DNA of 64,000 nucleotides from an uncultured Gammaproteobacteria bacterium. GTDB taxonomy: Bacteria; Pseudomonadota; Gammaproteobacteria; Arenicellales; JAANXG01. The stretch spans positions 1-64,000 of the forward strand of contig CAMYKW010000007.1 in the NCBI GenBank assembly GCA_947259175.1. The letters run 5' to 3'. The position numbers and the translations under genes were made by a program. Position 1 is the first letter of the stretch; every line of letters starts with the position of its first letter. Positions 4,312-26,485 of the stretch are shown piece by piece. The notes beneath the pieces are model-generated. The model was not told the DNA's origin, ran no database searches, and saw only the letters and a list, made by a program, of their open reading frames with translations.

Positions 4312-4730
4312 CCCCTTACTCCTCACGTTCGACTCTTTAAGGACCCACGGGCGGCACCGTGCCCATCGACACAGCGACTTTTGGAAATGACCCACACCAC
4401 TTTTCCGTAGACGCGGTTTCCCGCGTCCAAACCGAATCTTGCCGGTCGCACCCAGCCTGATTCCCCCACCTAGGCTATTGTTCTTAGTCGTTACAGACGC
4501 GCTGACAACGATCGAGGCCCGTAGCTGAGCGTATTCATTCGCTCGCGCCCGTCCCCGGCGCATGGTATAGCCGCGATCCGCATCGATTAGGCGTTTCGGC
4601 ACCCGTAACGTCGAGCCGACTCCGCCCCGGTGTGTTCATCCCGTTCCACCGCGTACGCGAATGTTAACAAGATTGTAATGTTCCCGCACTAGATCAATCG
4701 CCGGATCGTGCGATGCGCGGCTAAATTTCT

Positions 4731-7448: not shown

Positions 7449-7710
7449 CAATGCGTCGTGCGCGATTGCGTGTAAAGATCATGTCCGGATATTGGTGACG
7501 GCGTTTCAACACGCCACCGATTGTGGTGCGGAGCCAGCCTATATGGACCCGCCACGGCCTATCAATACTCACGCGAAGGTGCGCTCAAACCTCAATTGTA
7601 GCCCGGTTTGAGACAAAGCGGGAGAACAGCGCCCGATAGCTGCGGCGCTGACGCCGGAAACGATAGACGCAATCCGGATCCGAACGCGTGGAGCTGCTCG
7701 CCGGCGGCGC

Positions 7711-8421
7711 TTATTGGGTCGCCAGTTTGGCGCCGCCCAAGCGCGCGTAGTAACCCGCCAGACCCTGCAGCTCATCGTCCTTGAGGCGGCTGGTTAGATC
7801 GCACATGCTGTTGTAGACGTCGCGCGCACGTTCGAACTGAGCAAACAACTGCATGGTGGTCACGAAATATTCGATCTTCTGACCACCGATGGCCGGTGTA
7901 TCGATGGGAGCGCCCTCGCCGCGCTCGCCATGACAGGCCGCGCAGGCGGTCAATCCCCGCTGCTGGTCACCGTGCGTTACCAACTTGGTAATCTCCTCCG
8001 ACACGGGCGGCTGCGACAGGTCCGGTGCGGCGGGTGGCAGCGATTCGTAAAACACAGCCACATCCGCCATCTCCTGGTTACTGAGTCGGCGCACGCGGCG
8101 TCGCATGGGATTGTGATTGCGGGGCCCTTTCGCCTTGTAATGTTGCAGCTGCTTGTAGGTATACGCCGCCAGTTGCCCGGCAAGATTCGGCACCTCCGGC
8201 TCCACGCCGATCCCGTTCTCGCCATGACAATGACTGCACCTCTCAGCCAGCTCTTTACCTCGTGTCGCGTCCCCGCTGTCGACAATTTGTTGTTCCTCGG
8301 CGGTCCAAAGCACCGTCGCTTTGGGCGGCATTTTGTCGGGCGGCATCTTGTTGGACTGCGCATATACGAACATGGGGGACACGACCAACAACAAACCGGC
8401 TACAAAGCACTTGACTGCCAT
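7711..8421 (-). CDS. dihaem cytochrome c4-type protein
   Basis: A 236-residue periplasmic dihaem cytochrome. The ATG at 8421 is chosen over the upstream in-frame start because AGGAGG lies six bases before it and the product then opens with a signal peptide ending VYA. Haem motifs are CSHCH in the first half and CAACH in the second, each followed by a candidate Met ligand (NPM and NSM). Two tandem class I domains of about 90 residues match cytochrome c4 or c553-type relatives, which usually pass electrons to terminal oxidases. It lies downstream of two trihaem genes on the same strand, separated by 186 bases with a hairpin. Confidence 0.9.
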   Translation of the reverse strand: MAVKCFVAGLLLVVSPMFVYAQSNKMPPDKMPPKATVLWTAEEQQIVDSGDATRGKELAERCSHCHGENGIGVEPEVPNLAGQLAAYTYKQLQHYKAKGPRNHNPMRRRVRRLSNQEMADVAVFYESLPPAAPDLSQPPVSEEITKLVTHGDQQRGLTACAACHGERGEGAPIDTPAIGGQKIEYFVTTMQLFAQFERARDVYNSMCDLTSRLKDDELQGLAGYYARLGGAKLATQ

Positions 8422-8547
8422 GAGCTGCCTCCTTTGGAAAAAACCGAACAAACGTTTACGTTCTTTTATGAAATATTCCCGGCGGGAACCGACCGCTCTG
8501 CAGAGTATATGTAATACGGGGTTTTTAGTGCAATAACCGGGAAGATC

Positions 8548-8585
8548 CCGGCGCGGAGCCCGAAGTTTAGGGTCATCCGCGCCGG
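8548..8585. terminator. hairpin between cytochrome genes
   Basis: A perfect 10-base inverted repeat (CCGGCGCGGA, matched by TCCGCGCCGG) encloses an 18-base loop, just after the trihaem gene stop on the minus strand. No T-run follows, so it may be a processing or attenuation hairpin rather than a true terminator. Confidence 0.4.
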
Positions 8586-8607
8586 CTTACTAAACCTGTC
8601 CGTCGGT

Positions 8608-9246
8608 CTATTTCTTCTTCGCCGCCGGCTTGGCTGCCGGCTTCGCGGAAACCTTGCTTGCCTTAGCCTTGCCCTTGGTCTGTACGTGACAACGACGACA
8701 ATCGGCAACCGGAAACGCCACTTTGCCATGACAAACGCCGCACGATTCACCCAGCATGATCGCAGCCATGCTCATCTGGTTGGCTCCTTTCTGCGGCACA
8801 AACACGGCCGGATGACAGTTGGAGCAGTCCAGCCATTCCGTGTGTTGTTTGTGCGGGAATATCACATCCGGCATCGATCCCTTGACCTCGCGGACGATAG
8901 TGAGATCCATGATCACCGGCTGCGCCTTGGGATCATCGCGGTCGAAACGCGGTTGGATTTTCTTTTCGTCAAACGCCTTGACCCAGTCAACGTAATTTCC
9001 GGACGGGCCTTGGGGAAGTGGCGTAAACGCTTCCTTGGGAGTCTGCAATCCCTGGGTACCGGGCGATTGTGGGTCATGTATGCCGTCATCCACAGGCGGT
9101 GGATTTCGCTTTGATGGAGGTTTCATCAACCGGTTGAACGTATTGGGATCGGCCGCCGACGCATCGGGCACGGGCATCCAGGCCAGATTCAAGGCGATAA
9201 TTCCGAGCAACGACAGCAGAGATGTAAGGAACTTTGAGCGTAGCAT
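8608..9246 (-). CDS. trihaem cytochrome c7-type protein with Lys-rich tail
   Basis: A 212-residue periplasmic protein. The ATG at 9246 follows GGGAGG by eight bases; an in-frame GTG at 9255 overlaps that site and is rejected. A signal peptide ends near DASA. The C-terminal domain has three haem motifs, CSNCH, CGVCH and CRRCH, with upstream FPHKQHTEWL histidines that could be axial ligands, the pattern of c7-like trihaem cytochromes. The last 20 residues are repeats of Lys, Ala and Pro. The haem domain is closely similar to that of the lipoprotein at 11166-12341 (both have W-L-[DE]-C-S-N-C-H and I-S/M-M-A-A-I). It starts 15 bases after the preceding cytochrome gene, so the two are co-transcribed. 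Confidence 0.92.
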   Translation of the reverse strand: MLRSKFLTSLLSLLGIIALNLAWMPVPDASAADPNTFNRLMKPPSKRNPPPVDDGIHDPQSPGTQGLQTPKEAFTPLPQGPSGNYVDWVKAFDEKKIQPRFDRDDPKAQPVIMDLTIVREVKGSMPDVIFPHKQHTEWLDCSNCHPAVFVPQKGANQMSMAAIMLGESCGVCHGKVAFPVADCRRCHVQTKGKAKASKVSAKPAAKPAAKKK

Positions 9247-9261
9247 TGTAGTCACCTCCCT

Positions 9262-9669
9262 TTAATTCGCGGCGCCGGTTGGCTGGGCTAATTTTTGTAA
9301 CGTACTTCCGTGAACCTGGGTCGGTGTCTGGGGTTGGCCCGAATGGCACAAATCACAGTTTTCCACCGACCACGCGACTTCTCCATTGTGGCACGCGCCG
9401 CAGTACTCCCCGTCGATGATTTTCAACATGTTGACGTCGTTACCGCCAGCCTCGAACTTAAAACCCAAATCCGCATGACAGACCTTGCAGCGGAACCGGA
9501 TGCGGTGGAACCAATGGGGGAATACCACTGGACGGATACCGGCATCATCGGAATATTTATTCATCACCACGTCGCCAAACTCGGCATGGCTCACATTATG
9601 AGTCACAAACAACAAGCTCATCATTGTCAAGCCGGCGAGCAATACGCGTTTACAAAGTGTTAGCGCCAT
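9262..9669 (-). CDS. small trihaem cytochrome c7-type protein
   Basis: A 135-residue periplasmic protein, first gene of the trihaem pair. The ATG at 9669 follows AAGGAGAAG. A signal peptide ends near SHA. Three haem motifs (CKVCH, CGACH, CDLCH) and the FPHWFHRIRF segment, with two possible axial histidines, give the compact c7-like fold. Short Gly/Pro/Thr-rich C-terminus. The FNR-like inverted repeat at 9877-9896 lies about 210 bases upstream, suggesting redox control of this operon. Likely a soluble periplasmic electron shuttle; partners are not shown. Confidence 0.92.
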   Translation of the reverse strand: MALTLCKRVLLAGLTMMSLLFVTHNVSHAEFGDVVMNKYSDDAGIRPVVFPHWFHRIRFRCKVCHADLGFKFEAGGNDVNMLKIIDGEYCGACHNGEVAWSVENCDLCHSGQPQTPTQVHGSTLQKLAQPTGAAN

Positions 9670-10089
9670 CAGTTTCTTCTCCTTCTCGGTTTATCTCCGG
9701 GTCGAGTATTACAGAGCAACAATATTCCATAAATCAGCGCACCAGAATAGGTGAACGAACAAACCGTCCATTTCGACTATATTGGAAATGCGCTTGAGTT
9801 CAAGTATCGTCAACTACGGCCACGACATCCAGCCTTCGGCCCGATGTTTTCATACTAGCCTCACCGGGTCGGCAAATTCTTGAGTTTCGTCAAGAAATGG
9901 GCAATATAACCCCCTGAATCTGAACGATTCACGGCTGCGACATGCGCGCAGCCGCGGTGGCCGCTGGGGTTTGAAGTCTAAGAAAAATCAACGGTGATGG
10001 AGTGATTCCGGCGATGTGCGCCGGCAACTTGCGCTCGATCAACCGAGACGCGGCTAAACGCCGTGCGCGTTTTCGGGAATCCCGGGGCG
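9670..10089. other. intergenic region upstream of the trihaem operon
   Basis: These 420 bases separate the trihaem operon start from the 3' end of the Crp/Fnr regulator gene on the same strand. The only clear element is the inverted repeat at 9877-9896. The remainder is AT-rich, without a convincing gene. Confidence 0.55.
9877..9896. promoter_or_regulatory. FNR-like inverted repeat upstream of trihaem cytochromes
   Basis: TTCTTGAGTTTCGTCAAGAA has seven-base arms (TTCTTGA/TCAAGAA) around six bases; its core TTGA-N6-TCAA is the FNR-class half-site spacing. It stands about 210 bases upstream of the trihaem start at 9669. Confidence 0.5.
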
Positions 10090-10791
10090 TCAGCGTCGCC
10101 GCATGACTAAATGCGTCAACCCGGTTTGATCCGAAATCTGTATGCTCCTTCGTCCCAGGTTGACCCAGCCCTTGTGTTCAAAGTCTTTCAGTTGCCGGCT
10201 GACTACTTCGCGGGCCGTACCGAGCTCGGTAGCCAGCTCCCGGTGGGAGGCCTGGATAATCTGATTGTCATCGCAATTCGTGAGTAGCCACTGGGCCAAT
10301 CGCGTGTCGACATGGCCGAAGGCCACTTCCTCGAGCAGGACAATCAATTCGCTGATCCGCTCGGCATAACGCTGGTTCACGAACTGCCGAAACGTCTGAG
10401 ACTGATCGAGCGCATGACGAAATTCCTTCGCCGGCAGCAACACAAGATGAGAATCCCGTTCAGCTACCGCCTCGGCCGGGTAGCGTTGCCCGCTCAGCAG
10501 CATGGCCGCGGTCACCGCGCAAGTCTGTCCACCACCGACACGGTACAATACGATTTCACGCCCCTTGCGCGAGACCCGGTAGACACGCAGGCACCCCTCC
10601 AGTAAAAAGAGGTAGTGTGTACACTCGTCGCCCTGCCGAAACACCAGAGACTGCGCCGGTAGCCGCATGGTCTTGGCCGCCATACTCGCCTTTTGCCACG
10701 CCGCATCGCGGCTTTGCGCCAGCGCTGGAAACGCCCGAAGCCAAAACGGCACCACGGTATCCGCGGTGTTTCGAAACACCTGGTCCGCCAC
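10090..10791 (-). CDS. Crp/Fnr-family transcriptional regulator
   Basis: A 233-residue cytoplasmic regulator: cyclic-nucleotide-binding-like beta barrel (residues about 40-145, with FRQGDECTHYLFLLEGCLRV), dimer helix, then a winged helix-turn-helix (about 180-225, ASHRELATELGTAREVVSRQ). The start is GTG at 10791 with a weak GGGGGTT before it. It has no N-terminal cysteine cluster like FNR, so it does not look like an iron-sulfur oxygen sensor; the ligand is unknown. Relatives of this length include nitric-oxide or redox-responsive regulators. It lies between cytochrome operons, and FNR/CRP-like palindromes flank several of them, so it is the obvious candidate for their control. Confidence 0.92.
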   Translation of the reverse strand: MADQVFRNTADTVVPFWLRAFPALAQSRDAAWQKASMAAKTMRLPAQSLVFRQGDECTHYLFLLEGCLRVYRVSRKGREIVLYRVGGGQTCAVTAAMLLSGQRYPAEAVAERDSHLVLLPAKEFRHALDQSQTFRQFVNQRYAERISELIVLLEEVAFGHVDTRLAQWLLTNCDDNQIIQASHRELATELGTAREVVSRQLKDFEHKGWVNLGRRSIQISDQTGLTHLVMRRR

Positions 10792-14138: not shown

Positions 14139-14303
14139 TCAGCGCCTCTTCCTGTTCCGCGATCGGGATTTCTTACTCTTGTGATCGTCGTCCCTGCAAT
14201 CCCGGTACGACTCGGAAGAGCGCTCAGACCTGGAGTCGTCATCCGATCGGGAATCAGATCGGGAATCATCGGAATCCGAATCGTGGTCGGGCGGGCACAT
14301 ATC
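14139..14303 (-). repeat. 165-base charged-tail module, copy A
   Basis: Encodes the last 54 residues plus stop of the first tetrahaem cytochrome. It aligns base for base with 15532-15696, with four mismatches by my count, although the haem domains upstream have diverged much more. This suggests recent duplication or gene conversion of the tail. Confidence 0.9.
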
Positions 14304-15212
14304 CGGCGTCGGCGTCGGCGTCGGCGTTATTGTCGGCATCGGCGTTGGCGTCATTGTCGGCGTTGGCGTTGGCGTTGGCGTTGGCGTTGGCGTCGGCATC
14401 GGCGTCATTGTCGGCGTTGGCGTCGGCGTCATTGTTGGCGTCGGCGTTGGCGTCGGCGTAGGTGTCGGCGTCGGCGTAGGTGTCGGCGTTGGCGTCGGCG
14501 TTGGTGTCGGCGTCGGCGTAGGTGTCGGCGGCGGCAGCTGGGCCACAGGCGGATTGTCTATGCCTTGGTTGCCGCCACAGTCGATATCGTTACCGTCGAC
14601 GACACCGTCGCCATCGTTGTCCAGACCAGTCAGCCCGACCTGCGCATCGGCGCAGGACGCGTCCAACAGAGTAATGACATTACCTCCGTCCGCGCGATAA
14701 TTAAACGGTAATACGTCCTCTCCGGCGGTGATCACATTGGCCGGGTCGGCATCGGCGTGGCAACCGCCGCATATCTGTATCCCGGCACCCCAGTGGTGCT
14801 GGCGCAAACCGGCGCCTCGCTGCGTAATCGGGTATAGCGCGGGCGCGCCCGTGTCGAGACCGGCGTCTTCATCGCGGCCGTGACAACCGACACACCCCTG
14901 CACGCGGACGGGGCCGCCCGACTGGCCGGTCAGGACCGGCACCGGCGGATTAACCGTTATATCCATGTGACAAGTCTGGCACTGGACCAGTTGACCGCCG
15001 TCGATGAAATTCTTGTGGCCTTCCATCAAACTCGTACCCCAACCCTGGTCGATTCCGAACCTCTTGTAGGGGATATCCGTGAATCCGCCGTGGCAGTTGT
15101 TACACCCGGCCGAGTAAGCCTGATACGCGGACGCGCTGGACGTCCAAAACACGACAAGCAGCACTATCCCGATACCGCTCCCCCACAATCTGAAAGTACT
15201 AAATCGCTTCAT
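14139..15212 (-). CDS. tetrahaem cytochrome c with Pro-Thr linker and charged tail
   Basis: A 357-residue secreted protein. The ATG at 15212 follows AGGAGG by about eight bases, replacing a longer frame; a signal peptide ends SASA. Four haem motifs lie in the first about 160 residues: CNNCH, CQTCH, CVGCH, CGGCH. A Ca-binding-like loop ([16 protein letters not shown]) follows, then a Pro-Thr (some Met, Ile) repeat of about 75 residues, then a 54-residue tail rich in Asp, Ser, Arg and finally Lys/Arg, with two cysteines. The tail is nearly identical to that of the next gene. The haem region is a diverged paralogue (GLRQHH, GEDV shared). Its location is inferred as cell surface or extracellular. 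Confidence 0.92.
14304..14531. repeat. hexanucleotide repeat coding for Pro-Thr linker (copy 2)
   Basis: Degenerate six-base units (cgtcgg, cgttgg, cgtagg, with cattgt and catcgg variants) encode Pro-Thr, Met-Thr and Ile-Thr pairs on the minus strand. More diverged than the pure run at 1-264. Confidence 0.93.
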
Positions 15213-15531
15213 CGCGAGCCCTCCTGCCAAGACGGAATGACGTTCTGGTTAGAATGATTCTGAAATCGTTTAGATCAACTTTTATACTGGCGCTGTCGTT
15301 TATCACTCGGAAAACCGGTCATTTCACTGCTACTGCGCGATTATCACCCTTCCTCCGGTCGCCGTGAAGTGTCTTAATCACTGAATCGCGTTGCACTTGA
15401 ACTGCGTGGTAACGCGGATGTTGTACATCAAAACTAAACGCAGACATCGAACCAAAAGGCCGGAGGTTTCCCTCCGGCCTTTCTCATTACCGCGTTTTAT
15501 GAACGACTGATATTCACCCGCAGCTACTCCA
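15213..15531. other. intergenic region between tetrahaem genes
   Basis: These 319 bases hold the terminator of the upstream tetrahaem gene (15458-15479) and presumably the promoter of the 14139-15212 gene. No FNR/CRP-like repeat is obvious here, unlike upstream of the neighbouring paralogue. Confidence 0.5.
15458..15479 (-). terminator. intrinsic terminator of the second tetrahaem cytochrome
   Basis: Stem GGCCGGAGG/CCTCCGGCC with loop TTTC and a four-T run on the minus strand. The stem is identical to the one at 14063-14084, so the duplicated tail and terminator probably moved together. Confidence 0.82.
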
Positions 15532-15696
15532 TTAGCGCCACTTCCTCTTCCGCGATCGGGATTTCTTACTCTTGTGATCGTCGTCCCTGCAATCCCGGTA
15601 CGACTCAGAAGAGCGCTCAGACCTGGAGTCGTCATCCGATCGGGAATCAGATCGGGAATCATCGGAATCCGAATCGTGGTCGGGCGGGCACATATC
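15532..15696 (-). repeat. 165-base charged-tail module, copy B
   Basis: Second copy of the tail module, encoding D-M-C-P-P followed by Asp/Ser/Arg-rich sequence and a final Lys/Arg cluster. Four differences from copy A in 165 bases by my count; the changes include the stop codon (TAA versus TGA). Confidence 0.9.
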
Positions 15697-16434
15697 CGGT
15701 GTGGGCATCGGCGTCGGCATCGGCGTCGGCGTCGGCGTCATTGTCGGCATCGGCGTGGGCGTCGGCGTCATTGTCGGCATCGGCGTCGGCGTCATTGTCG
15801 GCATCGGCGTTGGCGTGGGCGTTGGCGTCGGCGTCGGCGTCGGCGCCGCACAATCCGGATCGGCAGCGTTGGTTAGATCGTCGCCGTCGTTATCGAGACC
15901 CAAAGTACGAGAACCGCTGCCGTCAGCGGGATTGTTAGGCTGCAAAAAGTCCTCGGTATCGCTGCAAGGATCAGTCGCTGTCGCCGCGGTCGCATAACCG
16001 GCCGGGGGTACGTCTTCGCCCACCGGCGTAAAATTAGCGGGATTTGCGTCCCCGTGGCAACCAGCGCAGGTCTCAATTCCATTGTTGAAATGATGCTGGC
16101 GCAGCCCGGCGGATCCCGTCTGCAAACCCACAGTGTTTCCGACGTCTTCCTGTCGGCCGTGACATTGTGTACAGCCCGACAATGTAGTGGGTGGAAAAGC
16201 GCCGCCTACGTGGCAGGTACCGCAATTATTATTGGCGTTTGCCGCGTGTGTGTTGTGTAAGGCGTTGGCGGTTCCGCCTGAAAACAGCGTGTGGCAACCC
16301 GCGCAACTTGACCAATTGGAAAAAGAAAAAGCCGGCGCGCTCCACGTCATGAGCGTCGCCGCCAGGCCGGCAACCGCGAGTGTCGCGATCCCCGCAGACA
16401 TGGCTCTGTGTGTAAATGTGAAACATCGCCTCAT
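15532..16434 (-). CDS. tetrahaem cytochrome c, paralogue with same linker and tail
   Basis: A 300-residue secreted protein. The ATG at 16434 follows GGGGAGG by six bases; a signal peptide ends near APAFS. Four haem motifs (CAGCH, CGTCH, CTQCH, CAGCH) lie in residues about 40-140, then a degenerate Ca-loop ([16 protein letters not shown]), a Pro-Thr/Met linker of about 50 residues, and the 54-residue charged tail shared with 14139-15212. An inverted repeat GTGACTAAGTCAC lies about 150 bases upstream. The two genes sit head to tail with matching terminators, consistent with a tandem duplication. Confidence 0.92.
15697..15843. repeat. hexanucleotide repeat coding for Pro-Thr linker (copy 3)
   Basis: Six-base repeat with cattgt, catcgg and cgtggg variants encoding Pro-Thr/Pro-Met pairs on the minus strand, immediately upstream of tail copy B. 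Confidence 0.92.
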
Positions 16435-16987
16435 CACAAACCTCCCCGGTTATTGTTTAAATATCAAGCTCCCGACATTCGGCGCCAACTTCCATTTGTC
16501 TGGAATTTCGCCCCACGTATCTCTCCGTTTGGACGCTCACCGTTGCAGCGTATTATCGCAAGTGACGATTTCACTGTATAGTGACTAAGTCACCGTTGCG
16601 CATCACTTGATCGACTTTCACCTTCCGACGCCCGCAAGGTTAAAGTCGTTACAGTACCAGCGAGTTATAACCCATTCCAGTCTGTTTTGTCATCCACCAA
16701 AACTACCAACTGCGAAATGATCAGACCGGCGGTATGATCCTGGTCAAGAATCGCCGAATTATTTTGAATCTCCGATGCGAGGTTCGAACTTACTGAGGCG
16801 AAATACTTCGGTGCCGAAAGCAGAAATCAAAAATTGGACAACGGCGCGAGAAGCGGGTGTGATGACTGAGCGGGGACGTACGAGCGGGCGGACCCGGCGA
16901 CGATCGCTTCGAGCATGCCATGCGGTTGACTGCACAATTTTACCGATTTATACATTGACCGGACTGAGAACTCGTTTGGGTCGGTGT
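16435..16987. other. divergent intergenic region, cytochrome versus PKD operon
   Basis: These 553 bases separate the second tetrahaem gene (minus) from the PKD/monohaem operon (plus). There is no convincing gene; the frame open from 16775 is an artificial extension of the PKD gene. Inverted repeats occur at 16561-16575 (AGTGA-N5-TCACT) and 16581-16593. Confidence 0.55.
16581..16593. promoter_or_regulatory. inverted repeat GTGAC-N3-GTCAC (copy 1)
   Basis: GTGACTAAGTCAC, arms of five around three bases. Its exact reverse complement occurs at 24215-24227, upstream of another cytochrome gene, so it looks like a shared operator. A second repeat AGTGA-N5-TCACT at 16561-16575 lies just beside it. 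Confidence 0.5.
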
Positions 16988-18412
16988 ATGAACAGCTTGG
17001 TGAGATTGACGTTGTGCGGATCCTTATTGCTATGGTTCGGCGGTATCCCGGTGCACGCGTCGAGTACCGGAACGACGGGCTACTCCGGCAAGGATCCGGA
17101 ACGCCATTGTTCGACTTGCCACACCGGTACGGCCGCGGAGCCGCAAGTCACCGTCGCCGGACCGGTGACCGTCGATACCGATTCCACGGTCACTTACAGC
17201 CTCAGCCTTCACGGAGAACCGGGGAATGTGGGTGGCTTGAACGTCGCTGCGGCCGCCGGCGCCCTGGCCGGAGCGGGAGACGACGTGGAGCTCGTCGATG
17301 GGGAACTCACCCACCGCGCGAACCGGGTTGCCGCCGACAACGGCACCGTCTACTTCAAATTCCGCTGGCGCGCGCCGCGCATTCCCGGCACCTACGCACT
17401 TTACGTCGCCGGTGTGTTGGGGGACGCGGATGGCCGGCCGACGGGCGACAGCGCTGTGCACAGCGAATTGAGGGTACAAGTTATCGACCGCAGCGCGGCG
17501 GCCAACGAGCCTCCACTTGCCCACCTGCAGGTCCCGCCGGCGGCGTTGGTAGGAGAAAAGGTGCTATTGAGCGCAAAGCATTCTGCGGACTCCGACGGCG
17601 ACATCGTATCTTACGCATGGGACTTCGGCGACGGCGAAACAGCAACCGGGCAAGCGCCTATGCTGCAGCATAAGTATGCGGCGGCCGGTGTCTACACGCT
17701 GCAGGTGGCGGTTACCGACGACGACGGCGCCACCGTCTCGGCCTTGGGCCAGATCGAGATAACCGACACCGATAACGGAACTGAGATGAAACGTCCCCTG
17801 GCCGTACCGGGGGATAATTACGACGTCGCCTTCGGCGACCCCGTGCAGTTCGATGGCAGTCAGTCCCGCGCCAGCCATGAGGACGGTCAAATCGTGTCGT
17901 TCGAATGGGACTTTGGCGACGGTTATCAGGGCGGTGGTATTGCGCCCACCCATTTTTATGCAAATCCCGGACCCTATATCGCCAGACTGACGGTTCGGGA
18001 CGACAGCGGTCTGCCTCATTCGGCGATCACGTCCGTTACTGTCCGGGGCCGCGAGTTACCTCGGATCGCGAAATTCAAAGTACCGCACAAGATTGTGCTT
18101 GAAGACAATCAGCCTCAGCCACGGGGGCTGGACGTGACGGCGGACGTCGTCGGCTTGAGAGCGGACGCGTCGCGCTGTGGTATCGTTTATTTACGGCGGA
18201 ATAGTCAAACCGTCCAGGAGCAAACGGTTTGCTTTCTTGGGGCGGAGCCGCGATTAATGACATTCAATCACGTATTTACGGAGAACGATATTCCGTCGGT
18301 CACATGGACTGCGTACCTGGTGCTCGGACCGGACCTGGTGAGCAAGCATCGCACGAAGCAAACCCAGGTCGAGACGGCTCCGCGGGATCAGTCCGGGGCT
18401 GCGAAAAGTTGA
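16988..18412 (+). CDS. monohaem protein with anchor-V-like domain and two PKD domains
   Basis: A 474-residue secreted protein. The ATG at 16988 gives a signal peptide ending near VHA. The N-terminal domain begins GYSGKDP then CSTCH, one c-type haem site, followed by a beta-sandwich resembling the choice-of-anchor-V family (VAGPVTV...GGLNVAA). Two PKD domains follow, each with the WDFGDG signature (residues about 175-265 and 270-360), then a C-terminal domain with a CGIV...VCFLG cysteine pair. First gene of a plus-strand run to 23463. The gene at 20316-21740 is a full-length paralogue. PKD domains normally mediate surface protein contacts, so a haem-bearing surface scaffold is inferred. Confidence 0.88.
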   Translation: MNSLVRLTLCGSLLLWFGGIPVHASSTGTTGYSGKDPERHCSTCHTGTAAEPQVTVAGPVTVDTDSTVTYSLSLHGEPGNVGGLNVAAAAGALAGAGDDVELVDGELTHRANRVAADNGTVYFKFRWRAPRIPGTYALYVAGVLGDADGRPTGDSAVHSELRVQVIDRSAAANEPPLAHLQVPPAALVGEKVLLSAKHSADSDGDIVSYAWDFGDGETATGQAPMLQHKYAAAGVYTLQVAVTDDDGATVSALGQIEITDTDNGTEMKRPLAVPGDNYDVAFGDPVQFDGSQSRASHEDGQIVSFEWDFGDGYQGGGIAPTHFYANPGPYIARLTVRDDSGLPHSAITSVTVRGRELPRIAKFKVPHKIVLEDNQPQPRGLDVTADVVGLRADASRCGIVYLRRNSQTVQEQTVCFLGAEPRLMTFNHVFTENDIPSVTWTAYLVLGPDLVSKHRTKQTQVETAPRDQSGAAKS

Positions 18413-18432
18413 CGGGCCCCGATGACAGCTCG

Positions 18433-20136
18433 ATGGCGCCGGAGAGGCCGTTAATACACGAAACGTGGGTGGCGCGCGGACATTGTCCGCAGAGAACCGG
18501 TGTGTTCACCGGCCACGGCCACAAGCTTTTGCTCACACTGTGTCTCATCACGGGACTGCCGCCGTTGGTGAGCTGCCACCATTTATCGCCGCCGCCGTTG
18601 ACTATAGCGGCCACGCAACCGGCGGACCGGGCCGAAGGCGTGGAGCCAGACACTCACATCTCCGCGATTCTGACTGGCACCGTGGACGACTCGCCACCCC
18701 TTTCGCTGACACTGAGCGACGGCAAGACAAAAATCCTGGGCGCCGTCAGTGTCGATGTGGACGCGCGGACCATTAGCTTGGCACCGGCGCGCGCTCTGGC
18801 GCTGTCGACCGCTCACAGCGCTACGCTCACTTTACCGCGACAGAGCCAGGGTGGCGCATCCCCCAGGCGGCTCAAATGGTCGTTCACTACCCGTGATGTC
18901 GCTGCCTGGCAGTTCGTGGACGGCGGTGGCCTGAACTGGAGCGTCGACTGGGATACTTATTTCCCGCAGCTGACCGCGCTCGGTAACAAGCTCTACGCCG
19001 CCTGGCGGGAAATGCCTTACCTGCACGGACCGATGCAGCTGCGCGTCGCCGTCTACAACGGCGACGATGCCGCACCGGCCTGGCGTTTCGTCGACGGCGA
19101 CACCTCCACGGGGGGTATTAACTGGGACCGGAACCGGCACGGGTTCGCCATCCAGATCACCGCCTTCGAGGGCAGGTTGTACGCCATATGGGAAGAAAAC
19201 AGCGTCACCGTGAGTCAGATCCGGGTCGCAGTGTACAACGGTGATGACGACCATCCCGCTTGGACGTTTGTCGACGGCAATGGGCCCACGGGGCTCAACC
19301 ACGACCCCAAGTTTGTCGCGTCCTATCCGAATTTGACCACTTTTGCCGGCAAGCTCTATGCCGTCTGGAATGAACGATACGGCCGCGCGCGCCAAATCCG
19401 CGCGGCGGTCTACAACGGCAACGACCGGGCGCCCGGCTGGCGGTTCGTGGACGGCGATACCGCCGACGGGATCAATTACAACCCCGCGCGCAGCGGATTT
19501 CATCCGCAGCTCACCGCATTCGGCGACAAACTGGTGGCCGCGTGGGTGGAGCGCAACCGCAGCGCCGACCAGATCCGCATCGCCACCTATAACAGCGTTG
19601 ACCGTGCGCCGGCGTGGACTTTCATCGACGGCGGCGGAGACAGCGGCATCAACCGAGATGCCGCCAGGTCCGCGGCCTACCCGGAGCTGGCCGTCTACGC
19701 GGCGCGCCTGTACGCGATCTGGACGGAAAAAGATGCGCATGATACCAACCAGGTGCGGGTAGCGGTGTACAACGACGACGACAGCGCACCGGCGTGGACT
19801 CCGGTCGACAGCGGCGGAGTCAGCGGTCTCAATCGGAACCCGGAGCGCATGGCCTATGAGCCGCAGCTCACCGCGTTCGGCGCCAGACTGTACGCCACGT
19901 GGTACGAGGGCGATCACAAGGGACGCGGACAAATCCGCGTTGCGGTCTATAACGGCGACGATGGCGCGCCGGAATGGACGTTCGCCGACGGCGGCGGTAG
20001 ACACGGCATCAACAAGAATCCGCGGCGCTCGGCGCTCGACCCGCAGTTGACGGTGTTCGATTCCCGGCTATACATTACCTGGAAGGAACTGATTGGTAGC
20101 CGTGGACAAAGGGTGCATGTCGCCGTTGGCCGCTAG
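18433..20136 (+). CDS. lipoprotein with Ig-like domain and seven propeller repeats
   Basis: About 567 residues, starting 20 bases after the preceding stop; start uncertain (ATG at 18433 chosen, in-frame GTGs later are possible). A hydrophobic segment ends in P-L-V-S-C, a lipobox. Residues about 60-155 resemble a bacterial Ig-like (SbsA-type) domain. The rest is seven repeats of about 58 residues with the pattern [AG]W.F[VI]DG, GIN.[ND], PQLTAF, [KR]LYA.W.E, Q[IV]R.A.YN and D..AP, consistent with a seven-bladed beta-propeller. No haem motif. The operon context suggests a surface partner of the PKD-monohaem proteins. Function unknown. Confidence 0.85.
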   Translation: MAPERPLIHETWVARGHCPQRTGVFTGHGHKLLLTLCLITGLPPLVSCHHLSPPPLTIAATQPADRAEGVEPDTHISAILTGTVDDSPPLSLTLSDGKTKILGAVSVDVDARTISLAPARALALSTAHSATLTLPRQSQGGASPRRLKWSFTTRDVAAWQFVDGGGLNWSVDWDTYFPQLTALGNKLYAAWREMPYLHGPMQLRVAVYNGDDAAPAWRFVDGDTSTGGINWDRNRHGFAIQITAFEGRLYAIWEENSVTVSQIRVAVYNGDDDHPAWTFVDGNGPTGLNHDPKFVASYPNLTTFAGKLYAVWNERYGRARQIRAAVYNGNDRAPGWRFVDGDTADGINYNPARSGFHPQLTAFGDKLVAAWVERNRSADQIRIATYNSVDRAPAWTFIDGGGDSGINRDAARSAAYPELAVYAARLYAIWTEKDAHDTNQVRVAVYNDDDSAPAWTPVDSGGVSGLNRNPERMAYEPQLTAFGARLYATWYEGDHKGRGQIRVAVYNGDDGAPEWTFADGGGRHGINKNPRRSALDPQLTVFDSRLYITWKELIGSRGQRVHVAVGR

Positions 20137-20289
20137 TCTGAAGGGGCGGAACTGTTGCAAAAATGTGCCAAGATGTCCGGCGAGCCACTGTTCCCGCGAA
20201 TCGAACAGTACGCGCTGCAAACCGAAGACCGGGCAAAGTTGGGAACAATCCGATAGCAAGATGCAAAAAATCACAAGGAGCGGAACCGC

Positions 20290-20319
20290 ATGCTCACGCG
20301 CCGCCTGCTAGGCTCATGA
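20290..20319 (+). CDS. possible nine-codon leader ORF
   Basis: An ATG at 20290 with AAGGAG upstream starts a short frame (MLTRRLLGS) whose TGA stop overlaps the ATGATG start of the next gene. The next gene lacks its own good ribosome site, so translational coupling through this leader is plausible. Confidence 0.4.
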   Translation: MLTRRLLGS

Positions 20320-21740
20320 TGTCGCGTGCCGTACTGATGGTGCCGGCGTTCGTAGCGCTGTGGGTCGGCGGCGCGGCGGCCGATGCGGCGAGCGGCGGGA
20401 TGATCGGCCATTCAGGAAAGGATCCCCGCTACGACTGTTCGGACTGCCACCACGGCAGCGCCGGCGAACCACAGATTACGGTAGCGGGGCCGGTTAGCGT
20501 GGATATCGATTCCGCCGTCACCTATACCATCAGAATGTACGGTGAGCCCGGGAGTTTTGGTGGTATCAATATCGCCGCGTCCGCCGGGACGCTGGGCATC
20601 GCCGACGATGACACACGCGTGATCAATGGAGAATTGACCCAACGTGCAAGCCGCGTGGCCGACGACACCGGAACCGTCCGCTTCGGCTTCCGTTGGCGCG
20701 CGCCGCCGCAACCCGGGCCGCAGACACTGTATATCGCCGCGGTGTTGGGCAACGCGGACAGCAGTCCGGCCGGCGACAACGTGGTGCAAACCAGCACACA
20801 AGTCAACGTCATCGACCGCAGCGCGTCCACTAACGACCCCCCACGCGCACAACTGCAGCTCCCTGCCGCGGTCACCATCGGCGAAAAAGTCATGTTCAGC
20901 GCGGTGCAGTCAAATGATGAGGACGGGAAGATCGTCTCTTACGCCTGGGATTTCGGTGACGGCGAAAGCAAGACCGGAGCGAGCCCGGTCGCGCATCATG
21001 AATACAAGACACCCGGGTTGTACACGCCGCAGGTCACGGTCACCGACGACGATGGCGCAACCGGCTCGGCGCTGGCGCAGATTGAGATCACCGCTCTGGC
21101 GTCCGGCAATCAAGAAAAATCTCCCGCGGCGGTGGCCGGGGGGCCTTATGAAGTGGCGTTCGGTGATCCCGTGCAGTTCGATGCCGGCGACTCGCGGCCC
21201 GGCATGGAGAAGGGACGAATTGTCGCGTATGAATGGGATTTTGGCGACGGCTATGCCGGTAGCGGCGTGGCGCCACGGCATTATTACGCGCAGCCGGGTG
21301 CTTACATTACGACACTGACGGTGTGGGATGACCGTGGACTGCCTGGTTCCGCGAGGGCCATGGCAAGGGTTCGCAAAGGCGAGTGGCCGAGAATCGGAAA
21401 ACTGCGGGTGCCCGCCAAGGTGTCGCTGACGGACGGACTGCCGGCGCGGCGCACTTTCAACGTAGTGGTGAATATCGCCGGCCTCGGCGCGGGGATAACA
21501 CGCTGCGGGGTGGTACACCTGGAGCGCAATAACCAACCCTATCAAAACAACATGATCTGTTTCGTCGGCTCAAGGCGGCAGCGCATCATATTCGAGCACG
21601 ACTTCACCGAGGCCGACGCCCCGTCGGTGAGCTGGACTACTTATGTGGTGCTGGACCCGGATATCGAGAGCCGCCGCGAGACCAAGACCACCGGCGTGCA
21701 AGTCGCCTCCAGCGGGCAGTCGGATACCGCGACGCGATGA
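20316..21740 (+). CDS. monohaem protein with anchor-V-like and PKD domains, paralogue
   Basis: A 474-residue paralogue of 16988-18412 with the same order: signal peptide, GHSGKDP then CSDCH haem site, beta-sandwich, two PKD domains (two WDFGDG), C-terminal domain with a conserved cysteine pair (CGVV...ICFVG). Start ATG at 20316 (or 20319); the ORF extends further upstream but that part is not signal-like. Its stop overlaps the next start in ATGA, so it is co-translated with the FGE-fold lipoprotein. A duplicated haem-scaffold pair flanking the propeller gene suggests a heteromeric surface assembly. Confidence 0.88.
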   Translation: MMSRAVLMVPAFVALWVGGAAADAASGGMIGHSGKDPRYDCSDCHHGSAGEPQITVAGPVSVDIDSAVTYTIRMYGEPGSFGGINIAASAGTLGIADDDTRVINGELTQRASRVADDTGTVRFGFRWRAPPQPGPQTLYIAAVLGNADSSPAGDNVVQTSTQVNVIDRSASTNDPPRAQLQLPAAVTIGEKVMFSAVQSNDEDGKIVSYAWDFGDGESKTGASPVAHHEYKTPGLYTPQVTVTDDDGATGSALAQIEITALASGNQEKSPAAVAGGPYEVAFGDPVQFDAGDSRPGMEKGRIVAYEWDFGDGYAGSGVAPRHYYAQPGAYITTLTVWDDRGLPGSARAMARVRKGEWPRIGKLRVPAKVSLTDGLPARRTFNVVVNIAGLGAGITRCGVVHLERNNQPYQNNMICFVGSRRQRIIFEHDFTEADAPSVSWTTYVVLDPDIESRRETKTTGVQVASSGQSDTATR

Positions 21741-22531
21741 CCGGGTTCGCCACCAAGCTCGCCGGTATCACCCTGCTGGCAATCTTCGCCACAGCTGTGC
21801 CGGGCTGCGCCACCGGAACCGGCGACGGTGGCGCCACCCCACCGGTGGCGGCACTGGTTTTTGTCAACGGCGGTTGTTTCCAAATGGGGGACGTGTTCGG
21901 CGACGGCGAAGCCGACGAAAGACCGGTACACAAAGTGTGCGTGGATGATTTTTATCTGGCGGAACATGAGGTCACCCAGGGACAGTGGATGGCGGTCATG
22001 GGCGACAACCCGTCACACTTCCAGGACTGCGGGCTCGATTGCCCGGTGGAGAACGTATCCTGGGACGACGCGCAGGCCTATATCGCCCGGCTCAACAAAT
22101 TAACCGGCAGCCGCTACCGGCTTCCCACCGAAGCCGAGTGGGAATATGCCGCGCGGGACCGCGGGCTGAGAATGAAGTGGGCCGGCACCAACGACCCCTC
22201 GAAGCTGGGCGACTTCGCCTGGTACGGGGGGAATGCCGGCGGCCGGGCTCATCCGGTCAAGACCAAGAAGCCCAACGCCCTGGGTCTGTACGACATGACC
22301 GGTAATGTGAACGAGTGGATGTCTGACCTTTGGGGAAAGCGTTACTACCGGGACAGCCCGCGCGAAAATCCCCGCGGGCCGGACACTGGCGTGGGCCGCG
22401 ATTCACGCGGCGGCTCGTGGTGGAGCGTTCGCAAATTTACCCGCATCGCCAACCGTTACGCGGACGATCCGGGTTTCCGCGCCGGCAACCACGGATTTCG
22501 CCTCGCGCGCGACGGCGAAAGCAAGAACTGA
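21737..22531 (+). CDS. FGE/SUMF1-fold lipoprotein, probably non-catalytic
   Basis: A 264-residue lipoprotein with lipobox V-P-G-C near residue 24. The rest is a formylglycine-generating-enzyme-like domain: F.MGD, EVTQGQW, NPSHF, VSWDDA, YRLPTEAEWEYAAR, GLYDMTGNVNEW, RGGSW and GFRLA. The position that carries the catalytic cysteines in FGE (after RGGSW) reads S-V-R-K-F-T-R, with no cysteine. The fold is therefore likely used as a binding or structural module. It overlaps the preceding gene by ATGA and the next by one base. Confidence 0.9.
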   Translation: MTGFATKLAGITLLAIFATAVPGCATGTGDGGATPPVAALVFVNGGCFQMGDVFGDGEADERPVHKVCVDDFYLAEHEVTQGQWMAVMGDNPSHFQDCGLDCPVENVSWDDAQAYIARLNKLTGSRYRLPTEAEWEYAARDRGLRMKWAGTNDPSKLGDFAWYGGNAGGRAHPVKTKKPNALGLYDMTGNVNEWMSDLWGKRYYRDSPRENPRGPDTGVGRDSRGGSWWSVRKFTRIANRYADDPGFRAGNHGFRLARDGESKN

Positions 22532-23463
22532 TGCGTCTGCTTCGGCAAGCGTCGATGATTCGTCAGCGCGACGGCGCAGGCACGGTGCAACGAGTCTGGC
22601 GCGCGCCGCAGCCGATCCTGCTCGCTGCCGTCGTGGCTCTGAGTGCGGCGGCTTGCGTGCGCACACCGTGCACCTGTCCGGAGTCTACCGCCGCAGACGA
22701 ACCGGTGGCCGACGCGGCGGCCCTGGCGGCGACGGCGGATTATGTTGATCCCGCCACCGGCATCGGCTTCGTGTTGGTTAAGGGCGGCACCTTTCAAATG
22801 GGCGATACCCACGGCGATGGTTCCCCCTCCGAAAGACCGGTCCACCCGGTGACGGTGTCCGATTTTTACATCTCCCAGACTGAAGTGACCCAGCGGCAGT
22901 GGACCCGCATCACCAATTACAATCCGTCGCACTTCCGCGGCCCGCATCTGCCAGTGGACCAGGTGTCCTGGAACGACATCCAGGAATGGCTGGCCAAGTT
23001 GAACAAAAAAACCGGCCGCCGCTACCGGCTGCCCACCGAAGCCGAATGGGAGTACGCCGCGCGCAGCGGCGGCAAGGACGAGAAATGGTCAGGAACCTCA
23101 AATCCGAAAGAAATCGGCGACTACGTGTGGTACCGGGAAAATTCCAACGACCGCAGCCACCCGGTGGCGACTAAAAAGCCCAACGGCCTGGGCATTTACG
23201 ACATGAGCGGCAGTCAGTGGGAGTGGGTACACGACCGGTACGATTTCCCGTTTCCCGCCGAGCACCAGGTGAATCCAACTGGCCCTGAACAAAGTCTCAA
23301 GAACGACTACCGCACCTATAAGGGCGGCGCATGGGATTACGTTCCGCTGATCGTGCGCACCACCATGCGCAGCGGCAAGGAACCGAGCTATAAGCGCCGC
23401 TGGATCAGTTTCCGTATCGCCATGGACACCGGCAAAAATACCGAAGAGGAACGGCGCAAATGA
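22531..23463 (+). CDS. FGE/SUMF1-fold lipoprotein, second copy
   Basis: A 310-residue protein starting at the ATG overlapping the previous TGA (TGATG). Signal sequence ends L-S-A-A-A-C, a lipobox, after an N-terminal extension. Domain motifs match its neighbour: FQMGDTHGDG, EVTQRQW, NPSHF, YRLPTEAEWEYAAR, GIYDMSGSQWEW, KGGAW. No cysteine lies after KGGAW, so a formylglycine-generating activity is unlikely. Last gene of the run; the terminator at 23466-23491 follows directly. Confidence 0.9.
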   Translation: MRLLRQASMIRQRDGAGTVQRVWRAPQPILLAAVVALSAAACVRTPCTCPESTAADEPVADAAALAATADYVDPATGIGFVLVKGGTFQMGDTHGDGSPSERPVHPVTVSDFYISQTEVTQRQWTRITNYNPSHFRGPHLPVDQVSWNDIQEWLAKLNKKTGRRYRLPTEAEWEYAARSGGKDEKWSGTSNPKEIGDYVWYRENSNDRSHPVATKKPNGLGIYDMSGSQWEWVHDRYDFPFPAEHQVNPTGPEQSLKNDYRTYKGGAWDYVPLIVRTTMRSGKEPSYKRRWISFRIAMDTGKNTEEERRK

Positions 23464-23465
23464 AA

Positions 23466-23493
23466 AAGGCCGGGGTCATCGCCCCGGCCTTTT
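23466..23493. terminator. bidirectional intrinsic terminator
   Basis: AAGGCCGGGG/CCCCGGCCTT stem with six-base loop TCATCG, T-run on the plus strand and A-run (T on minus) on the other side, between convergent genes ending at 23463 and 23524. Confidence 0.88.
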
Positions 23494-23523
23494 GATCAAT
23501 GCGTTAACGCGTGAGGTTGCAGC

Positions 23524-23964
23524 TTAACTGCTGTGGTCATCACTGCTGTGGTCATCGCCTCCCTTTCGATGATAACCACTACTGCTGTCGTCGTCATCGT
23601 CGCCGAAGTCCCACTTGACACCGTGACAAGTCTGGCAGTTGGGTCCAATCCCCATCCCGCCGCGCTCGAGGCTGTGGCAGCTACCGCATCCAGAGGCATC
23701 CCATTCGGCCTGGCTCCAGTTCTCGGTACAATCGCGATGAGTCTCGAAGGCGGTGTTGCCTGGAAAACCGCACACAGGGATATTCTGCATGATTGAACAG
23801 TCGCCCATGGTGCCTCCGCTGGTGTCGTCGTCGCCGGCATTACACCCAAACGACGGGCCGTCCGCCAGCACCGGCGCAAAAGACGTTGTCACCATGACAC
23901 CCGTAGCGAACACTCCGGTGATCATTAATGCACCAATGGCGCTCAATAGTTTCTTACCCGACAT
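23524..23964 (-). CDS. small dihaem cytochrome with acidic Ser/His tail
   Basis: A 146-residue secreted protein. The ATG at 23964 follows AGGAG; a signal peptide ends near VLA. Two haem motifs CGSCH and CQTCH sit in residues about 90-115, with four extra cysteines before them (possible disulfides). The final about 25 residues are Asp, Ser, His and Gly, with five consecutive Asp. The tail recalls, in composition but not sequence, the charged tails of the tetrahaem pair. An inverted repeat shared with the tetrahaem promoter lies about 250 bases upstream. Role inferred as extracellular or periplasmic electron transfer. Confidence 0.85.
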   Translation of the reverse strand: MSGKKLLSAIGALMITGVFATGVMVTTSFAPVLADGPSFGCNAGDDDTSGGTMGDCSIMQNIPVCGFPGNTAFETHRDCTENWSQAEWDASGCGSCHSLERGGMGIGPNCQTCHGVKWDFGDDDDDSSSGYHRKGGDDHSSDDHSS

Positions 23965-24679
23965 AGTTTGATCTCCTCTGCTAGTGAGTATTATTCGATA
24001 GTAATTTTTCGAAGCACACTATGGCGCCCGACGCAACCTCGCTGTCCCATCTTCCGTGTTCGAGGGTAACGTATTATGTGGATGTCAAGTCGATTTGTCG
24101 ACACCAAGATGCAAACATGGAAGAAAATTTGATCTATGCCGTAAATACGATCAAAATTTTTTGTACGGTTGAACGCGAGTTTGTGACTTTGTCTCCGAAT
24201 CGAATGAAGAAACTGTGACTTAGTCACCAGCAGCAAGGTGGTACCGTTCCCGCGGAGACGGTCGCGAATGTTTACGCATGTCATTCATCGGCCGCACCTG
24301 GTCATCCATCGGCAATGAGCCACCCGGCCGCTGACGCCGAAACCAAATCCGTACACGGTTACTGGCATTACCCTAGCCGGATCAATGTTGCGCTAATGCG
24401 CCAAGCGACTATTTCTGGAAAGACCTATCACGATCGGACACCGTACCTTCGTGGCACTGAGGTTACGAGTGTTTGCGCCGCAACAAACCCGGAATGGTCG
24501 CCAGCCCGCATTTCTCACCAGGATCCCGGATGCTGGCGCAGGGCTCGTGCGGCCCAGCTACTATTCATGGCACGTGGTTACGACGCCCGCAATTTTGGTT
24601 CAATGAAGATACTACTCAGACTATTGGGACTGCTTGCCGAGAATAGTAGCTGGACGCCCGGTGAGAAATGCGAGCTGCG
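23965..24679. other. intergenic region with operator-like repeat
   Basis: A 715-base gap between the dihaem gene and the diguanylate cyclase 3' end. No convincing gene; the 24315-24683 plus frame has no family-like sequence. Contains the inverted repeat at 24215-24227 and AT-rich promoter-like sequence at 24120-24170. The segment near 24638-24665 (aatagtagctgg...) resembles 27418-27450. Confidence 0.5.
24215..24227. promoter_or_regulatory. inverted repeat GTGAC-N3-GTCAC (copy 2)
   Basis: GTGACTTAGTCAC, the exact reverse complement of 16581-16593. It lies upstream of the dihaem cytochrome, about 250 bases from its start. Confidence 0.5.
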
Positions 24680-26485
24680 CTAGCGCGCGGCGAAACCGGT
24701 GTCTTGGGATGTCGGCATTTGACTGGCAACGCCGACACGGTCACGTCCGTTGACCTTCGCGAAACGCAGTGCTCGATCCGCTTCGTTGAAGATTAATTCG
24801 AAATTGTCCTGCTGCGTTCTTAGATCGGCGACGCCCAGACTGACTGTAACGTTTATTTCCCCAGCGGTGGTTTTAATCGGTGTGCCGCGAATAGTGGCGC
24901 ACAAACGTTCCGCGACTTGACCCGCAACCACGATCTCCGTCCGCGGCAACAACAACACAAACTCATCACCCGCGTAACGCGCCAACAAATCCTCTTTTTC
25001 TACAGCCCGCCGCAGTCGATTTACCACCGCCGCCAACACTTGATCACCTACCGCATGTCCGTAGGTATCGTTTATGTTCTTGAACTTATCTATATCAGCG
25101 ATGACTACCGACAATGGCGACTGGCTCCTTTGCGCCTGCTCCACCAGGCGCGGGGCCACTTCGTAGAGGCCACGGCGATTCTGCACACCGGTCAGCACAT
25201 CACGATCCAGTTCGTCACGCAGCGCCACCACCGGCCGCATGAATCGTCTCGCCATCAAGAACGCCACCAGCGTAATCCCGCCGCTGACGAGAATTGCGAG
25301 AACGATCTTGTTCCGTTCACTGCGGCGTATGGGTCCGATGAAATCCGTGTCCGCAACGTACACGCCTATTACCCACGGCCAGGGACTCATCTTCGGAAAC
25401 GGTCTGAAGATTGCGTGATACATCTCCCCGGCAACATCAAACGATGCCTGCAGGGTGTCTTCGACATTCAACCACGCAAAGTTGAGAAGCTCACCCGGGT
25501 CCCTGAATACCCGGATCGCCGCCTTCTCGATGGGATCCTCGAGTTCTTCGATCCGCGTCAAGCGCAGCTCACCGGTCTCGGCGTCGCGACTGACACGCTG
25601 TTCGTGAGAGTGGGCGATGTAGTCCCCCTGACGGTTGATTATGAGCGCCGCACCGCGGGCGCCAACACTCTGCTCACTGAGAAATTCCGACAGCTTGCCG
25701 ATCTCCAAATCAACACCTACAACCCCCGAGACGGCGGCGTCACGATTGAATATCGGTGTCGCCGTGGTGATTCCGGGTGTTTTGGCGGTAAAAAACACGT
25801 ACGGATCGGTCCACACCACGTCCTTCTTCGCCAGCGCATTTTTGTACCAAGGTCGAGTGCGTGGATCATAAGTATCGGCGGTCACGTCCTCGCGCGCGAC
25901 CAATTTAATTGACTCATCGAACCAACGGTTTTCAACCGCGCGCACGCCGGCGCTTAGTTCTATGGTTTTGACCAGATACGCATGCTCCCCCGCGTCGCGC
26001 TCCCGTCTGACCATCAGAAACTGTCCATTCCGGTCGCCGTAATAAACCGAATCAAGTTGCGGAACCACCTGTAATTGCTCGATGAAGTACCGCTCCATCT
26101 CGGCGCGCCGTGACCAGCTGATCATCCCCGCTTCAAACAGGCGCCGCGACAGCTCGGCGACGTTTTGCGCAGGTGTGAGAAAACCTTGCGCATTCTCTTT
26201 GATTTCATCGATGACTCCCCCCATGGTGCGCTTCATATGCTCCCGCAGCACCTGTTGCTCATTGACGTGCTGCGACAACAGGATGCCGGCAACCGTTACG
26301 ACCTGAAGAAGAACCAGACCGATAACTATCACGAATCGTAGCGATCTTTGACTGGGGAGTGCGCGCGCCGGCGCCAGCCCGGCGCCGTGCCATGCCGCGG
26401 CCGCTGATTCAGCAACCCCTGCGTCCCGGCTGACCTGCTGCTCACCCGGGACCCGGGTAGAGTTTGCTAGCTTATTGAGGGTCAT
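24680..26485 (-). CDS. membrane diguanylate cyclase with dCache sensor
   Basis: A 601-residue inner-membrane enzyme predicted to make cyclic di-GMP from two GTP. Order: cytoplasmic N-terminus, TM1 (residues about 50-70), a periplasmic dCache-type sensor (about 80-380, with the DPRTRPWYKNAL signature), TM2 (about 395-415), GGDEF domain. The active-site motif reads A-G-D-E-F, a variant that keeps the metal-binding acids. The RxxD inhibitory site is degenerate (E-K-E-D at the expected spacing). The start is ATG at 26485. Monocistronic as far as seen. It may link an external signal to surface attachment. Confidence 0.93.
   Translation of the reverse strand: MTLNKLANSTRVPGEQQVSRDAGVAESAAAAWHGAGLAPARALPSQRSLRFVIVIGLVLLQVVTVAGILLSQHVNEQQVLREHMKRTMGGVIDEIKENAQGFLTPAQNVAELSRRLFEAGMISWSRRAEMERYFIEQLQVVPQLDSVYYGDRNGQFLMVRRERDAGEHAYLVKTIELSAGVRAVENRWFDESIKLVAREDVTADTYDPRTRPWYKNALAKKDVVWTDPYVFFTAKTPGITTATPIFNRDAAVSGVVGVDLEIGKLSEFLSEQSVGARGAALIINRQGDYIAHSHEQRVSRDAETGELRLTRIEELEDPIEKAAIRVFRDPGELLNFAWLNVEDTLQASFDVAGEMYHAIFRPFPKMSPWPWVIGVYVADTDFIGPIRRSERNKIVLAILVSGGITLVAFLMARRFMRPVVALRDELDRDVLTGVQNRRGLYEVAPRLVEQAQRSQSPLSVVIADIDKFKNINDTYGHAVGDQVLAAVVNRLRRAVEKEDLLARYAGDEFVLLLPRTEIVVAGQVAERLCATIRGTPIKTTAGEINVTVSLGVADLRTQQDNFELIFNEADRALRFAKVNGRDRVGVASQMPTSQDTGFAAR

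Follow-up and report, generated by a model that had tools for sequence, protein, structure and literature searches.

We analysed a 64,000-nucleotide window from contig CAMYKW010000007.1 of an uncultured gammaproteobacterium, with a focus on five genes at 16988-23463. All five lie on the plus strand, where an initial annotation had placed them, and encode two PKD paralogues with a predicted single haem each (haem-PKD1 and haem-PKD2), a propeller lipoprotein and two lipoproteins with an FGE fold (FGE1 and FGE2). In the revised description given here, the unit is widened to eight genes (14139-23964), i.e. the five genes together with three small multihaem cytochrome genes that flank them. The window's genome (G000) is compared with that of a congener, the metagenome-assembled genome FCS_M_Gamma_074 (G005; uncultured Gammaproteobacteria, record CAMYNX010000030.1). 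The features of the locus are as follows.

14139-15230, minus strand: tetrahaem cytochrome 2, with signal peptide, four CXXCH, a Thr-Pro-rich linker and an Asp/Ser/Arg-rich tail
15369-15381: degenerate operator GTGTCTTAATCAC (2 mismatches), upstream of tetrahaem 2 and abutting TTCACG-N17-GATAAT; 1-mismatch copy in the congener
15532-16437, minus strand: tetrahaem cytochrome 1, divergent from the operon, with four CXXCH, Thr-Pro linker and Asp/Ser/Arg tail
16581-16593: operator GTGACTAAGTCAC, a perfect palindrome directly next to the TATACA-N17-GATAAT promoter of tetrahaem 1 and within the divergent region that haem-PKD1 shares; exact orthologous site in the congener
16988-18412, plus strand: haem-PKD1, with signal peptide, choice_anch_V domain with CXXCH, two PKD domains, a C-terminal domain and no lipobox
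18502-20136 (start may be 18433 or 18469), plus strand: seven-repeat beta-propeller lipoprotein with Big_5
20319-21740, plus strand: haem-PKD2, a paralogue of haem-PKD1 (54% identical)
21737-22531, plus strand: FGE1, a lipoprotein with FGE fold, lacking the FGE active-site cysteines; top PDB match TvpA
22531-23463, plus strand: FGE2, a lipoprotein with FGE fold, its C-terminal motif without Cys
about 23464-23497, plus strand: intrinsic terminator of the operon (-25.1 kcal/mol, z -5.7, then a T run)
23524-23964, minus strand: secreted dihaem cytochrome, convergent to the operon; tetrahaem in the congener
24183-24195: operator copy with 2 mismatches, near the dihaem gene
24215-24227: perfect palindromic operator GTGACTTAGTCAC, upstream of the dihaem gene; exact orthologous site in the congener

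The ratio of non-synonymous to synonymous substitution rates between the window and the congener is 0.12-0.24 for the five closely ordered genes, which are therefore genuine and under purifying selection. Haem-PKD2, FGE1 and FGE2 overlap (ATGA at 21737, TGATG at 22529-22533), as expected from the translational coupling originally described for the last three genes, and the congener has 4-nt overlaps at both corresponding junctions. The operon-like run is confirmed, except at its upstream end. Haem-PKD1 and the propeller gene are separated by a short gap in the window but by 543 nt in the congener, and because of this distance haem-PKD1 may be transcribed separately from the other four genes. 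Similarly, the description of the products as lipoproteins stands for three of the five, namely the propeller protein, FGE1 and FGE2, the lipoboxes of which are conserved in both species, but not for the haem-PKD proteins, which have plain signal peptides and lack a lipobox.

All eight genes recur in the congener in identical order and orientation, with identities of 60-78% for the five operon genes; the congener has one additional FGE-fold lipoprotein gene between its two tetrahaem genes. To the right of the dihaem gene, the neighbourhoods diverge, with glycosyltransferase-type genes in the congener versus a GGDEF gene in the window. Because these flanks differ, the conserved unit ends on this side at the dihaem gene; on the left, the comparison is limited by the end of the congener's contig. 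The window's dCache-GGDEF gene (24680-26485) shares its strand with the dihaem gene and lies beyond the operator pair at 24183/24215. Among 13 genomes of the family, full-length haem-PKD proteins, strong matches to tetrahaem 1 and the dihaem protein are found only in the window's genome and the congener, and a search of 194 relatives with the propeller protein returned the congener plus three weak matches to Big_5 only. Some of the family genomes are incomplete (74% upwards); single absences are therefore weak, while the joint pattern is stronger. In the phylum sample, the propeller query gave Big_5-domain matches only; among plasmids, it found one distant repeat protein in Tepidibacter (27%), and among viral contigs it had no match. 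A contig scan with two 7-residue patterns, of a kind that misses distant relatives, returned the congener's record only. The synteny with cytochromes is conserved in 2/2 genomes carrying the operon, and the pattern that would have spoken against the initial proposal, an operon without cytochromes in most genomes, was not seen.

Each haem-PKD protein has one CXXCH and two PKD domains, confirming them as a pair of monohaem-type paralogues. The PKD domains match PF18911 (1e-41 for haem-PKD1 and 5e-43 for haem-PKD2), and the CXXCH-bearing N-terminal domain belongs to the NCBIfam family choice_anch_V (NF041895; 3e-34 and 3e-32, or 118 and 112 bits against a curated cut-off of 42 bits). The CXXCH is kept in all four haem-PKD sequences of the two species and in 12 aligned relatives bar one, which has CX4CH. 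From this motif, haem-PKD1 and haem-PKD2 are predicted c-type haem proteins. An ELTH in haem-PKD1 is replaced by ELTQ in haem-PKD2; this His/Gln difference is conserved in both species and may mark a haem ligand. The AlphaFold model of haem-PKD1 is poor (pLDDT, the predicted local distance difference test score, of 53), and for this reason its PDB matches were not used; in this weak model, the C-terminal domain is all-beta. A copy of the C-terminal domain lies at about 1534-1818 of locus L012 (contig 173 of G004), beside an unrelated surface-type protein and with a stop within the match. The domain probably represents an extracellular module that is shared.

The propeller protein has the lipobox LVSC, a Big_5 match (2e-6) and seven repeats of 58-60 residues each, in agreement with its first description. 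AlphaFold returns a beta-propeller of moderate confidence (pLDDT 63 overall, ~53-86 in the blades), and the top Foldseek matches of this model are propeller enzymes and Kelch domains. By repeat number and modelled fold, it is a predicted seven-bladed beta-propeller. The FGE-fold assignment of the last two products is likewise upheld by PF03781, which FGE1 matches at 1e-50 (173 bits) and FGE2 at 7e-43 (147.5 bits; gathering cut-off 23.3 bits). However, both proteins lack the catalytic pair of FGE (RGGSxxC...C), with RGGSWWSVRKF in FGE1 and KGGAWDYVPLI in FGE2. FGE1 aligns to FGE but best, and across most of its length, to TvpA (2y3c, 1e-41), which like FGE1 lacks FGE chemistry. We suggest that FGE1 and FGE2 are probably non-catalytic and best read as binding or scaffold proteins. 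TvpA is diversified by a diversity-generating retroelement, whereas the matching C-terminal region of FGE1 is conserved between the two species, which makes a role of FGE1 as target of such an element unlikely.

Among the cytochromes of the unit, tetrahaem 1 has a 73% identical orthologue in the congener, its remaining matches in the family and phylum samples being weak, and tetrahaem 2 has an orthologue at the same position that is 49% identical over the aligned part. The dihaem gene is a shortened form of a tetrahaem gene of the congener (L009 6323-6982), of which the two-haem second half is missing. The Thr-Pro linker and Asp/Ser/Arg-rich tail are nearly identical in tetrahaem 1 and tetrahaem 2, and related stretches are found elsewhere in the genome and genus; they possibly represent a targeting or surface tail, or mere repeat expansion. 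Further away, the redox-rich stretch at 6045-10791 encodes trihaem c7 proteins, a two-CXXCH c-type cytochrome, a Crp-type regulator and a protein that resembles HemN by sequence. The minus-strand gene at 1-4602 encodes a giant cytochrome with at least 30 CXXCH, the 3' end of which is lost at the contig edge within a Thr-Pro repeat. It has an MtrC/MtrF-like domain (PF22113, 4e-23), c7 and c3 domains, DmsE-like stretches and a MopE-like copper-binding motif, and no barrel gene was recognised beside it. The initial annotation had counted the giant and tetrahaem cytochromes as part of one candidate system; this stands for the small adjacent ones, which are conserved with the operon, while the giant cytochrome is only a candidate member.

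The cytochrome genes of the unit are also marked by a common operator. The 13-bp perfect palindrome GTGACTWAGTCAC occurs in the window exactly at 16581 and 24215 and with two mismatches at 15369 and 24183, i.e. four sites versus 0.6 expected, a number equalled in 1/100 shuffles. Genome-wide, there are two exact copies in the window's genome (4.18 Mb) and two in the congener, all of them upstream of cluster cytochromes; the single exact palindromes in two other genomes (G001 and G004), and the further palindrome sites inspected in the window's genome and its congeners, map within or next to unrelated genes. One-mismatch counts across the genomes are close to those of a reversed-pattern control and are no evidence in themselves. 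The cytochrome genes thus have the operator in common, and its exact form is specific to the cluster. In both genomes, the site at each tetrahaem gene runs directly into a -35-like hexamer (TATACA, TTCACG, TTAACA and TTAACA), with GATAAT 17 nt further on. Independent promoter prediction also recovered both of these promoters in the window, and the dihaem gene fits the layout less well. Class II activators sit near -42, e.g. CRP at -41.5. Because the site abuts the -35 hexamer of this layout, the centre of the operator would lie near -42, the position of a class II activator. The lipoprotein operon shares the divergent region with the operator of tetrahaem 1. A second conserved non-coding block, at 16680-16760 (TTCATCCACC ... 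CCGGCGGTATGATCCTGGTCAAGAATCG), surrounds a TATGAT on the operon side of this region and is present in the congener; it could serve as promoter region of the operon itself.

Relatives of the haem-PKD proteins place the window proteins in a wider setting. The choice_anch_V model scored above cut-off in 14 of 369 gammaproteobacterial genomes, and 16 such loci were read. At four of them (L056, L057, L059 and L061, in G285, G346, G407 and G209), the gene for a choice_anch_V-PKD protein with 4-7 CXXCH and a decahaem MtrA-like gene are 275-577 bp apart, and an MtrB/PioB porin gene (PF11854, 1e-117 to 1e-146) comes after the latter. A c4-like gene is nearby in all four, and G285 and G346 also have a small tetrahaem protein that looks, by sequence, like the NapC/CymA type. 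Several low-haem choice_anch_V-PKD relatives end in membrane-anchor-like tails.

Based on these data, a functional link between the lipoprotein operon and the cytochromes is likely because the eight-gene unit is conserved, its parts co-occur and the operator is specific to the cluster. An electron-transfer role is plausible, and our preferred reading of the eight genes is a redox-linked scaffold of the outer surface or an electron-exchange module, distinct from the known conduits; we put the chance of this at a little under one half (about 0.45). In this model, an activator answering some redox or substrate condition would turn on small secreted multihaem cytochromes, and the divergent operon would yield an outer-membrane scaffold. 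The propeller lipoprotein and the two probably non-catalytic FGE/lectin-fold lipoproteins would serve as anchors and binding platforms, with haem-PKD1 and haem-PKD2 as rod-like spacers that carry a single haem near the N-terminal end. The scaffold would keep the tetrahaem cytochromes, which have flexible Thr-Pro linkers and acidic tails, in place at the surface for electron exchange with an external partner or surface; for the step across the outer membrane, the giant cytochrome would be no more than a candidate. If true, a gammaproteobacterial lineage without MtrB would have built a surface redox module on binding-type lipoproteins and not on a porin-cytochrome pair. The more specific proposal, that an undescribed apparatus exchanges electrons at the outer surface without any MtrB-type porin and that its platform of lectin-fold and propeller lipoproteins is linked by haem-PKD rods to the small tetrahaems under one dedicated activator, is in our opinion unlikely. 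In either form, the defined operator and promoter layout makes co-regulation directly testable.

Several observations weigh against the proposed module. The operator promoters face the cytochromes and not the lipoprotein operon, and the cluster is carried by two genomes only. MtrB/PioB (PF11854) has no match in the window's genome and none above cut-off in the 13 family genomes. Seven other matched choice_anch_V loci, with 0-3 CXXCH, have no decahaem neighbour, and the window proteins, with one haem each, fall on the low-haem side of this 11-locus split; the link to electron transfer therefore rests more on their own cytochrome neighbours than on the family association. The AlphaFold model of haem-PKD1 is too poor to locate haem ligands, and it is from sequence that haem binding, exposure at the surface and complex formation are predicted. 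Thus, the electron-transfer system that the initial annotation had favoured gains from the cytochrome synteny, the operator and the MtrAB-linked relatives, and loses from the lack of a recognised porin route and of C-terminal cytochrome modules in the haem-PKD proteins.

The same genes could instead encode a surface adhesion or ligand-binding module, in which the proteins bind a polymer, a mineral or a neighbouring cell, the single haem has a structural or sensory function and the cytochromes are co-induced neighbours. PKD, propeller and lectin folds are all typical binding domains, the top PDB match of FGE1 is a variable surface protein, and the low-haem choice_anch_V-PKD relatives, several with the anchor-like tails, are not beside MtrAB. 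However, the cytochromes accompany the operon in both genomes and are marked by the operator, which argues that they are not casual neighbours, and we regard this explanation as possible but doubtful. Alternatively, the lipoproteins could fold, export or polymerise the tetrahaems while remaining outside the electron path, with the haem-PKD proteins as cap or anchor. The cluster does combine two tetrahaem cytochromes with a propeller lipoprotein, and propeller genes beside multihaem cytochromes have precedents in the Uet and SEEP-SRB systems (PMC10734462, PMC12246660). By contrast, no peptidyl-prolyl isomerase (PPIase) was seen in the cluster, and the weak PDB match of tetrahaem 1 is a multihaem protein of the Geobacter type rather than a filament. 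To our knowledge, a Thr-Pro linker and a charged tail are not features of filament cytochromes, which also counts against a role in assembly or export, and we consider such a role improbable. Far less probable still is an enzyme operon in which FGE1 and FGE2 work in the manner of FGE or PvdO and, for instance, oxidise or mature a periplasmic partner. The strong PF03781 matches and sub-threshold matches to the PvdO, EgtB and GldK models would fit this idea, but the scores for the NCBIfam equivalogs fall far under their cut-offs (75-78 bits versus 500 for PvdO) and no sulfatase was recognised among the scanned neighbouring genes. As both active-site cysteines are missing, an FGE enzyme role is rejected.

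As the initial annotation had noted, no known cytochrome conduit was found with this gene set, and in the literature we found no link between electron conduits and choice-of-anchor V, PKD or FGE-fold proteins. The MtrCAB, Mto and Pio systems, like the cluster described here, have multihaem cytochromes that may act at the outer surface. However, they rely on a porin and a decahaem MtrA, and the cluster has neither: its cytochromes carry 4, 4 and 2 CXXCH, and no porin or other outer-membrane route was seen in it. Lacking MtrB, the cluster is not an Mtr/Pio conduit. The Uet system of Tenderiales and some Gallionella comprises the undecahaem UetJ, the tetrahaem UetA, the trihaem UetDEG, the PPIase UetB, a barrel and NHL proteins (PMC10734462). 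Its extracellular tetrahaem, trihaem cytochromes and propeller-type NHL-repeat proteins are similar in kind to the tetrahaems and propeller of the window and to trihaem c7 proteins 7 kb off. By contrast, going by the description of Uet, the cluster has no recognised undecahaem cytochrome, PPIase or barrel, and neither haem-PKD proteins nor FGE-fold lipoproteins have been described as parts of Uet (PMC10734462). In SEEP-SRB, genes for 26- and 16-haem cytochromes occur with those for a PPIase and a beta-propeller protein (PMC12246660, citing Skennerton et al. 2017). A propeller-fold protein is encoded with multihaem cytochromes as in the window, the difference being the small 2-4-haem cytochromes of the window and the absence of a recognised PPIase. 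Also close are the cytochromes of the four MtrAB-linked loci, which share with haem-PKD1 the choice_anch_V domain with CXXCH and one or two PKD domains (27-31% identity in the aligned parts) and which, like the window cluster, adjoin multihaem cytochromes. They differ by C-terminal cytochrome c modules that add 3-6 haems, and by the accompanying MtrA-like decahaem and MtrB porin, which the window cluster lacks. These choice_anch_V-PKD cytochromes seem to occupy the position expected of MtrC, and it is possible that they are an unrecognised surface partner of MtrAB in gammaproteobacteria. If true, choice_anch_V-PKD proteins in the place of MtrC would alter how MtrA-MtrB operons are recognised.

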